Source: Chitinophagaceae bacterium
GTDB taxonomy: Bacteria > Bacteroidota > Bacteroidia > Chitinophagales > Chitinophagaceae
Direction: 5' to 3'
Assembly (NCBI GenBank): GCA_024103425.1
Contig: JAGFIS010000008.1
Coordinates: 124,001-188,000, forward strand
DNA length: 64,000 bases
The translations under genes were made by a program, and so were the position numbers. How positions within the stretch are numbered: position 1 is the first letter of the stretch; each line of letters opens with the position of its first letter. The notes below the pieces were generated by a model. It made no database searches and was not told the DNA's origin. It saw only the letters and a list, made by a program, of their open reading frames with translations. Below are positions 30,759-32,734 of this stretch, one piece after another.

Positions 30759-30915
30759 CACAAAACAAAGGGTGGGTAAGGTGAAGGAAAGGAGAAAAAG
30801 TAATCCACATTTCTTTGCGTTTAGGGTTTATAGGTTTAGTATCCGGGGTTTATAGGTTTATTTGTTTATGCGTTTAGTGGGTGTTGAAGGTGATAATTGT
30901 TGAAACTAGCAAAAA
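30759..30915. repeat. Upstream flank of the REP cluster with a short direct repeat
   Basis: GGGTTTATAGGTTTA occurs twice (30824-30838 and 30846-30860, 22-bp period), between two GCGTTTA copies. CTAGC occurs at 30906-30910 and again where the first palindromic unit begins, a partial duplication of the unit boundary. No gene seen. Confidence 0.7.
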
Positions 30916-31020
30916 CTAGCGCAGATATGCAGCGCTGGGTTTGAGAGTAAGGGTATCTGTGTTTTACTTATCGGCACAGATACGCCACACACCGTCTTCC
31001 TCTCTGCAAAGCTGCCCCAG
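30916..31020. repeat. REP/MITE-like palindromic unit A
   Basis: Left arm CTAGCGCAGATATGCAG (30916-30932); inner perfect stem GTATCTGTG (30953-30961)/CACAGATAC (30975-30983) with a 13-nt loop; right arm degenerate (31004-31020, three changes from the consensus CTGCATATCTGCGCCAG). Confidence 0.9.
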
Positions 31021-31069
31021 TAATATGTTTGTTCTACCCGTTTATTTTTTCGTTGGAAAATAAAAGAAA

Positions 31070-31175
31070 CTAGCGCAGATATGCAGCGCTGGGTTTGTGA
31101 GTAAGGGTATCTGTGCTTTACCTTGTCGGCACAGACACGCAACGCACGGTACCTCATCCTGTATATCTGCGCCAG
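31070..31175. repeat. REP/MITE-like palindromic unit B
   Basis: Left arm CTAGCGCAGATATGCAG begins at 31070. Right arm CTGTATATCTGCGCCAG ends at 31175. The inner stem is GTATCTGTG/CACAGACAC. The arms form a terminal inverted repeat of 17 bp with two mismatches. Confidence 0.92.
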
Positions 31176-31276
31176 TAAGGGTATGCAGCGTTGGGTTTGA
31201 GAGTAAGGGTATCTGTGTTTTACTTATCGGCACAGATACACCACGCGCGGTTCCTCACCCTGCATATCTGCGCCAG
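31176..31276. repeat. REP/MITE-like palindromic unit C
   Basis: Directly abuts unit B. The left arm is eroded to TATGCAG. The inner stem and loop are identical to unit A over the segment from GTATCTGTG to CACAGATAC. Right arm CTGCATATCTGCGCCAG (31260-31276). Confidence 0.9.
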
Positions 31277-31365
31277 AGATAGATTAGCGAGTAAGGGCAT
31301 TTGTGCTGGTACTTTTAGGCACAGATACGCGACACACGGTTCCCCACCCTGCATATCTGCGCTGG
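31277..31365. repeat. REP/MITE-like palindromic unit D (adjacent to the 3' end of the RAYT gene)
   Basis: The left arm is largely lost (GATTAGCGAGTAAGG). The inner region is GCATTTGTGCTGGTAC through TTTTAGGCACAGATAC, and the right arm is CTGCATATCTGCGCTGG (31349-31365). The inner loop resembles unit E on the other side of the gene. Confidence 0.88.
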
Positions 31366-31385
31366 TAATGTCCCTGGTTTATTCG

Positions 31386-31946
31386 TTAAATTGTCAGCGG
31401 TGGTAAATCTATAATCTCTAACAGGCTTTCGCCTCCGTAATATCTAATTGCACTACTATATTTCCAGTCTTCCGGCTTGGTTACGAATCCGGCTACTACA
31501 GGGTTGTTGTGAATGTATTCCAATCTTTGATGTGCCATTTTGTTGCTTGTTAATAGTACAGGATGACTTTCGGGCTGCCAAAGTTGAAACCTGGAAGAGT
31601 TACTGAATTTTTGTGCCGCCCTTTCCATAGCAAGCAACATCCATTCCCGCCGGCTTTCAGACGGGTGTACCTTAATAGCCTTATGTAACATTTCGGAAGT
31701 ATGTCTTTTCAGATCGCGCATGATATTGGATAAGGCATTACCTGTAGTTCCGACTATCAAGTGCAGGTGACTTGTCATTATACACCAACCATACAGTTCA
31801 AGTCCTTTATTCTTCTGGCAATACTTAATACTATTGACAAGTATTTCTCTGTATTCTTCTCTGATAAAGAGGTCAACCCAGTCGGTAACAGTAAATGTGA
31901 CAAAATACAGTTTATCATTATCGCTGAACTTGTATTTCTTACTCAT
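31386..31946 (-). CDS. REP-associated tyrosine transposase (RAYT), Y1/HUH family
   Basis: 186 residues, similar in size to IS200/IS605-like single-strand transposases. The HUH metal motif is H60-L-H62 in IMTSHLHLIVG, and the catalytic Tyr is Y144 in RLEYIHNNPVVAGFV. The N-terminal block LYFVTFTVTDWVDLF and the central MERAAQKFSNSSRFQLW fit the RAYT branch. All catalytic residues are present, so it may be active. It is flanked by palindromic units (D at 20 bp from its stop, E at 86 bp from its start), the arrangement of a REP/RAYT module. Upstream of the start is a GTATTT/AAATAC hairpin. Confidence 0.93.
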   Translation of the reverse strand: MSKKYKFSDNDKLYFVTFTVTDWVDLFIREEYREILVNSIKYCQKNKGLELYGWCIMTSHLHLIVGTTGNALSNIMRDLKRHTSEMLHKAIKVHPSESRREWMLLAMERAAQKFSNSSRFQLWQPESHPVLLTSNKMAHQRLEYIHNNPVVAGFVTKPEDWKYSSAIRYYGGESLLEIIDLPPLTI

Positions 31947-32032
31947 TGTAAAAGTGTGTATTTGAAAAATACAATCTTTATGAAAAATAAGGACTGCCGG
32001 TACAAATTAGCTAAACCAAACTCCAATTAAAA

Positions 32033-32144
32033 CTAGCGCAGATATGCGGGGTTGGATTTATGGGCAAGGGTATCTGTGCTGGTAATAATGCTTTTAAGGC
32101 ACAGATACGCCACACGCGGCCCCGGCTCTGCATATCCGCGCCAG
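32033..32144. repeat. REP/MITE-like palindromic unit E (adjacent to the 5' end of the RAYT gene)
   Basis: Left arm CTAGCGCAGATATGCGG (32033-32049); inner stem GTATCTGTG (32070-32078)/CACAGATAC (32100-32108); loop CTGGTAATAATGCTTTTAAGG; right arm CTGCATATCCGCGCCAG (32128-32144). It is preceded by AAA like units A and B. Confidence 0.92.
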
Positions 32145-32221
32145 GAATGGGATACGCTGTGCACAACTTTATCGGCACAGGTAAGCCAACACGAAGCCTC
32201 TGCCCTGCATATCTGGGCCGG
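32145..32221. repeat. REP/MITE-like palindromic unit F (degenerate)
   Basis: Abuts unit E. The left arm is lost. CTGTGCACAACTTTATCGG then CACAG gives a remnant inner stem, and the right arm is CTGCATATCTGGGCCGG (32205-32221). It ends 18 bp before the paaD stop codon and may also act as its transcription terminator. Confidence 0.8.
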
Positions 32222-32239
32222 TTATTAGATGTTATTAAT

Positions 32240-32734
32240 TTAATGACACTTAAAATAATCAAAAGGCTCTGCACAGTCCTTGCATTTGAAAAGAGCCTTG
32301 CAGGCGGTGGAACCGAAGGCGCTGACAAGAACGGTGTTGGTAGAGTTACAAAAAGGACAAGGCGGATGGCGGTTGATCAAATCTTCGCTTCCGCGGTTGC
32401 CCATCGGAGGCGCGATGCCGAATTCTTTCAGTTTTCTTTTCCCTTCTTCACTCATCCAGTCGGTTGTCCACGGGGGCGCGATCTGTGTTTCTACTTTAAA
32501 ATGCGGTACCCCGCACTCTCTCATCTTTTTGTGGATATTCAGCGTAATCATGTCCATGGCCGGGCAGCCGCTGTAGGTGGGTGTGATGGTGATGATAAAT
32601 GTTTCTCCTTCTTTACGGATATCCCTCAACACACCGAGATCTTCTATGGAGATAACAGGTATTTCAGGATCTACTACTTCCTTCAACCACTTTCGTATGT
32701 CCTCAACTGTTATATCGCGAATGTGTGTTTCCAT
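32240..32734 (-). CDS. paaD: Phenylacetyl-CoA epoxidase maturation protein PaaD (PaaJ)
   Basis: 164 residues. An N-terminal MIP18/DUF59 domain (VVDPEIPVISIEDLGVL, then TPTYSGCPAMDMI) is followed by a C-terminal zinc-ribbon-like region with CPFC and CKDC motifs. It is thought to help assemble the metal or Fe-S cofactors of the PaaABCE complex. Last gene of the paaABCD run, 18 bp after paaC; the palindromic repeat cluster lies just downstream. Confidence 0.93.
   Translation of the reverse strand: METHIRDITVEDIRKWLKEVVDPEIPVISIEDLGVLRDIRKEGETFIITITPTYSGCPAMDMITLNIHKKMRECGVPHFKVETQIAPPWTTDWMSEEGKRKLKEFGIAPPMGNRGSEDLINRHPPCPFCNSTNTVLVSAFGSTACKALFKCKDCAEPFDYFKCH

Follow-up and report, generated by a model that had tools for sequence, protein, structure and literature searches.

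A RAYT gene among REPIN units in a Chitinophagaceae bacterium, and REP-bounded RAYT units in related genomes

Members of TnpAREP subclass 2.6 (Bertels RAYT group 5) are described in the main text of PMC6006769 as mostly Bacteroidetes RAYTs with "atypical" flanking structures that lack GT[AG]G and have copies elsewhere in the genome; Table 1 of that study gives WQ, YIH[QN]NP and NH[LIV]H as motifs of the subclass. RAYTs were reported to appear unable to self-mobilise, and an IS200-like origin of REPINs was raised only as a possibility (PMC3116915). The proposal in print derives REPINs from the terminal palindromes of an ancestral IS200-like element. Furthermore, RAYTs are considered single-copy genes that are inherited vertically (PMC8049555). 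The E. coli REP has a GTAG foot and a bulge (PMC8266576), and the REP superfamilies of PMC3733652 are short palindromes near RAYTs that carry GTAG or CGTC tags. We analysed a stretch of 64,000 nucleotides from a Chitinophagaceae bacterium (the window; contig JAGFIS010000008.1 of assembly GCA_024103425.1, positions 124,001 to 188,000) and found a locus that is a member of the kind already reported from Bacteroidetes in the main text of PMC6006769.

By protein family and active-site motifs, the protein encoded at this locus is a RAYT. It matched the NCBIfam RAYT model NF047646 at 105.6 bits (cutoff 80) and Pfam Y1_Tnp at 32.3 bits (cutoff 23), and its IS200 model score was under the cutoff (21.9 vs 55). 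The gene is a complete reading frame, and it lies where the first-pass annotation had placed it, as do the repeats. That annotation had also called the HUH and tyrosine residues intact, and H60, H62 and Y144 are indeed present (HLH at 60, WQ at 123, YIHNNP at 144). The sole relative of solved structure that we found is E. coli TnpAREP (PDB 4ER8); a predicted structure of the window protein was discarded (mean pLDDT 50 from six sequences). The neighbouring genes, named from their translations, are a uvrD-type helicase gene and a paaD-type gene. Like subclass 2.6 as given in the main text of PMC6006769, the window RAYT has WQ, YIHNNP, a length of approximately 180-190 aa, flanks without GT[AG]G and repeat copies elsewhere, but it carries SHLH where the consensus is NH[LIV]H. 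Since SHxH and NHxH are intermixed among close relatives in a supported clade, the Asn of the HuH motif varies within it. The clade of the window protein has support of 98/86 in a tree made of relatives only, and the assignment to subclass 2.6 (group 5), which the locus fits, is by the motifs and flanking structures reported in the body of PMC6006769.

The gene is flanked by six repeat units, four to its left and two to its right, in which ten 44-nt REPs are recognisable (Table 1). A half unit is a hairpin by itself, consisting of GCGCAGATATGC, a loop of approximately 20 nt and GCGTATCTGTGC, and two inverted halves separated by approximately 12 nt make up a unit of approximately 105 bp. The first-pass annotation had described six nested-palindrome units. 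Six units are there, but not all are intact: both outer arms are well kept only in units 2 and 5, the right arm of unit 1 is degenerate (CTGGGGCAGCTTTGCAG), the left arms of units 3 and 4 are eroded, and unit 6 retains its right REP only. Furthermore, GCGCAGATATGC, the outer arm, also pairs with GCGTATCTGTGC, the inner arm within its own half, and lone 44-nt halves occur elsewhere. The nested palindrome therefore amounts to two inverted hairpins, and REPIN is the best reading of each window unit.

Table 1. Features of the RAYT/REP locus, in window coordinates.
Feature	Position	Strand	Details
RAYT/REP cluster between uvrD and paaD; approximate extent missing at the G005/G017 junctions	30813..32239	.	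homology break/resume
REPIN unit 1	30916..31020	.	REPs 30919-30962 (+), 30974-31017 (-); right REP degenerate
REPIN unit 2, best preserved	31070..31175	.	REPs 31073-31116 (+), 31129-31172 (-)
REPIN unit 3	31175..31276	.	REPs 31175-31218 (+, eroded foot), 31230-31273 (-)
REPIN unit 4	31284..31366	.	left REP eroded; right REP 31319-31362 (-)
RAYT (TnpAREP-like Y1/HUH transposase), 186 aa	31386..31946	-	motifs SHLH, WQ, YIHNNP; profile matches
REPIN unit 5	32033..32144	.	REPs 32036-32079 (+), 32099-32141 (-)
Partial unit 6	32151..32221	.	recognisable: only REP 32175-32218 (-)

The 12-bp REP stem contains two G.T wobbles on one strand, which are A.C mismatches on the opposite strand, and therefore one REP strand folds better; the opposite-strand 44-mer folded less well or otherwise in the copies tested. 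Single-stranded folding beat chance in unit 2, with z of -5.2 and -3.7 for the two strands, and gave -2.4 and -2.8 in unit 1. The inner-stem pattern GTATCTGTG-N6..30-CACAGATAC occurred five times in the 3.29-Mb genome and was absent from the reversed control. Most of the 41 copies in the genome have C[TA][GA] as their 5' foot, with no GT[AG]G: the upstream C is present in 32, the next base is A or T, and the third is usually G or A. The bases one before and one after the 44-mer are pairable in 30 of 41 (G-C in 21, A-T in 7). Covariation in the stem among copies of this one genome was weak, with double changes at two pairs, and we dropped it as proof of the fold. Adjoining the cluster on its left, at 30824-30868, GGGTTTATAGGTTTA is repeated.

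The window units resemble REPINs and BIMEs (PMC3116915) in being two inverted REPs that are intergenic, dispersed and RAYT-associated, but each of their REPs measures 44 nt, includes G.T wobbles and begins with a C[TA][GA]G foot. Like the REP bound by E. coli TnpAREP (PDB 4ER8; PMC8266576), these hairpins have conserved imperfect pairs, and they would likewise be a substrate recognised on one strand. Where the E. coli REP has its GTAG foot and bulge, they have C[TA][GA]G and the wobbles. Like the tagged superfamilies of PMC3733652 they are short palindromes near a RAYT, but neither tag is found at their foot.

We found that the REPs are dispersed through the genome. We made a covariance model out of 30 halves, which themselves match by construction; at E<=1e-3 it identified 41 REPs, of which 10 belong to the locus and 31 do not. 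A blastn search with one unit, independent of the model, identified 13 places outside the locus at E<0.003 on several contigs. The first-pass annotation had proposed a REP/RAYT module and had reasoned that copies confined to one locus would speak against it; dispersed copies, protein family and position all support that proposal. Of the 31 dispersed REPs, 30 fall outside any ORF of at least 100 aa. Both neighbouring genes were identified for 28 of the dispersed REPs, and in 16 of these cases the neighbours are convergent. Away from the locus, inverted pairs occur on contigs C2 (two), C5, C24 and C31, and the remaining dispersed REPs are single or in direct order. On C19 (72118-73168), four REPs of the same orientation, 266-468 bp apart and with similar flanks, represent a local tandem expansion. 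A second dispersed palindrome, TGACCA...TGGTCA, often adjoins the REPs (L138:437-523, C12:37180, C5:17312, C5:133724, C31:72010 and others), and hairpins of another class, CTGGCGCAAGTTTGCAACTTGTGCC, share the foot of the REPs and are present at C19:46291-46315 and C20:12743-12767, with no RAYT recognised alongside. No Rfam family fits the window repeat (the sole chance match has an E-value of 0.43), nor did we find it in the RAYT/REP papers compared, among them the main text of PMC6006769. The first-pass annotation had suggested a distinct, possibly uncatalogued family. The repeat does lack a GTAG foot, but this is the reported property of subclass 2.6 (group 5), so that its kind is already catalogued.

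We asked how these sites look in related genomes, all draft assemblies. The uvrD genes most similar to that of the window (81%) belong to genomes G005 and G017, where uvrD adjoins paaD without a RAYT or a window-type REP. Homology on the uvrD side stops at approximately 30812 and restarts at 32240, and the uvrD-paaD junction measures approximately 100 bp in G017 versus approximately 1.49 kb in the window. Similarly, the two genes around the REP pair at C12:67048-67168 are split by a short REP-free gap in G013, G018 and G008. For both the cluster and the C12 pair, gain in the window lineage would be a simpler reading than loss in the others, and the REP-free sites are consistent with REPIN mobilisation by a RAYT.

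RAYT homologues were found in 39 of 61 related genomes. The three nearest (G001, G009 and G019; 67-72% identity) all have the window REP type beside them. A fixed CTGGCGCA...TGTGCC pattern was dropped, as it was too strict for several REP types and, where a genome had no close RAYT, matched coding sequence by chance; we therefore assessed enrichment of the foot without a preset motif. The most enriched 6-mer near RAYTs was CTGGCG, present within 500 bp of 29 of 57 loci versus 6 of 57 control flanks. Stems vary between RAYTs (GCGCAAGCGTC, GCGCGGAAG, GCGCAGGYC). By a looser count, CGC/GTG stems, with their G.T wobble, accompany RAYTs of the window's clade in 13 of 14 cases versus 2 of 14 for control flanks, and Watson-Crick forms of the triplet are likewise enriched near RAYTs. 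The G.T core is not universal in the subclass, since other hairpin types, some of them perfect palindromes, occur outside this clade. A strict REP class label requires seven changes on the RAYT tree because it misses degenerate feet; for the G.T core we therefore rely on the looser count.

We found that five genomes (G038, G042, G056, G060 and one Cytophagales MAG) each contain two or three copies of a REP-RAYT-REP unit of approximately 680-800 bp; when copies were compared within a genome, homology ended at or near the inverted REPs and the flanks were unrelated. The two 752-bp copies of G038 are 99.87% identical, lie 4.8 kb apart and end just outside the inverted REPs. There are three copies in G042 (76-80%), with REPs at both ends, two in G056 (86%), three in G060 (92%), and three in the Cytophagales MAG (90-95%), among REP arrays. 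Near-identical gene copies at different sites were found in relatives such as G038 and the Cytophagales MAG. The window genome has a single copy of its RAYT, and we therefore do not class the window element as an insertion sequence. Inverted REPs bracket the RAYT in 10 of 12 scorable loci, with the downstream REP 59-62 nt past the gene in eight; the window locus is one of the two exceptions, its gene being flanked by REPINs and not by one inverted REP per side. Both G038 copies carry a nonsense codon near the gene start and may therefore have moved in trans. Copies bounded by REPs, with unrelated flanks, are what transposition would predict, and recombination between REPs may also copy a unit. 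The units resemble IS200/IS605 elements in their Y1/HUH transposase, small size, hairpin ends and, in the flanks inspected, absence of target duplication. Unlike in IS200/IS605, their ends are inverted copies of one REP, and therefore the strand that folds well at one end is not the one that does so at the other.

Some REPINs of relatives contain the beginning of a RAYT gene. The congener G003 has 13 matches to a 180-bp REPIN, approximately five of them complete, at unrelated sites, and no close RAYT was found in its draft assembly. The interior comprises a RAYT leader, a start codon and approximately 12 codons, fused to the 3' end of the element. The remnant reads MSKKYKFGDNDK in two copies, with close variants in others and the ATG lost in one variant; the window RAYT starts MSKKYKFSDNDK. 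Similarly, G001 contains a full 720-bp element and, approximately 1 kb away, a 213-bp derivative that keeps 20 codons. A 245-bp sequence (91% identical) on contig C7 of G001 adjoins both the derivative and the full element (L044:64-307, 2125-2367). A REP-RAYT-REP element that lost its interior would yield derivatives like those of G003 and G001. Compared with REPINs described in PMC3116915, these would be intermediates of REPIN origin, their spacer holding a RAYT start. The window REPINs have a spacer of approximately 12 nt that holds no RAYT remnant, and for them an origin by internal deletion is therefore an extrapolation.

Our data suggest that each RAYT of this type in relatives moves together with its REPs as one unit, and that internal deletion of such units can give REPINs. 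The unit copies and RAYT-bearing REPINs appear to be new, and less expected given that the literature has RAYTs as single-copy and not self-mobile. We consider it probable that the window locus is a REPtron (REP/RAYT locus) of TnpAREP subclass 2.6 whose RAYT copies REPs and REPINs, and that the RAYTs of relatives, which resemble small insertion sequences, yield REPINs when the gene is deleted. The RAYT would be a Y1/HUH single-strand nuclease/transposase with the 44-nt REP hairpin 5'-C[TA][GA]-GCGCAGATATGC-loop-GCGTATCTGTGC-3' as its substrate, two such REPs in inverted order forming the REPIN of approximately 105 bp. Acting on single-stranded DNA, it would cut next to the hairpins and place copies of REPs and REPINs between genes. 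In relatives, a RAYT gene and the inverted REPs on its two sides would move as one unit, and internal deletion of the gene from that unit would leave a REPIN. The cutting, strand choice and direction of movement, and the action of the window RAYT on the window REPs, are what we infer from sequence. With somewhat less assurance, we favour the broader proposal that RAYTs of this subclass are not domesticated but are living insertion sequences with inverted-REP ends, that REPINs arise from them by internal deletion, and that REPs of the window's clade carry a C-G, G.T, C-G core (CTGGCGC...GTGCC) replacing the GTAG tag.

It is unlikely that RAYTs of this subclass are instead domesticated and fixed, and spread nothing but REPs and REPINs in trans, with the units of relatives produced when REPs recombine or undergo gene conversion. 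Against such a gene, five genomes have copies that end at REPs, have unrelated flanks and occupy different sites or contigs; also against it are the RAYT-bearing REPINs at many unrelated G003 sites and the nearest RAYTs, those of G001, G009 and G019, which had no uvrD or paaD neighbours in the flanking stretches examined but other neighbours instead. A domesticated gene would nevertheless match the published view (PMC3116915, PMC8049555), the single-copy window RAYT and the G038 copies, which are only 4.8 kb apart, have a third REP nearby and share their nonsense codon.

Two more Y1-type genes are present in the window genome, with 49% and 35% identity to the window RAYT. The first (C7:62009-62560; 49%) has a single inverted REP on each side with a differing stem, CTGGCGCAGGCCTCCCGGCCTGTG. 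On C4, repeats of approximately 90 bp, GTGTAATCCGCC...CGACACGCTAGAGCGGG, form an array behind the distant Y1-type gene (L003, about 2000-2330). Both genes exist and might in principle drive the window repeats, which we regard as highly improbable since the REPs flanking the C7 gene carry another stem and the GCGCAGATATGC type accompanies the window RAYT as well as the three RAYTs of other species that are closest to it. At least one of the two further Y1-type genes thus has a REP type of its own. There is similarly very little chance that the repeats serve the host as transcription terminators or RNA stabilisers, with RAYT proximity incidental, as their position outside ORFs and between convergent genes might suggest, since REP type tracks RAYT type across species and RAYT remnants lie inside REPINs, although the host may later have put some copies to use.

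In our preferred reading, of REPs and REPINs copied by a RAYT that in relatives moves with its own REPs, the unit copies and RAYT-bearing REPINs bear on how REPINs originate and whether RAYTs move themselves. For the subclass, described so far in the main text of PMC6006769 only as having "atypical" structures, a sequence definition of the REPs is gained. Furthermore, this bacterial group seems to hold the autonomous element, further copies of it and derivatives that have lost the gene, which would make this step testable in living bacteria.
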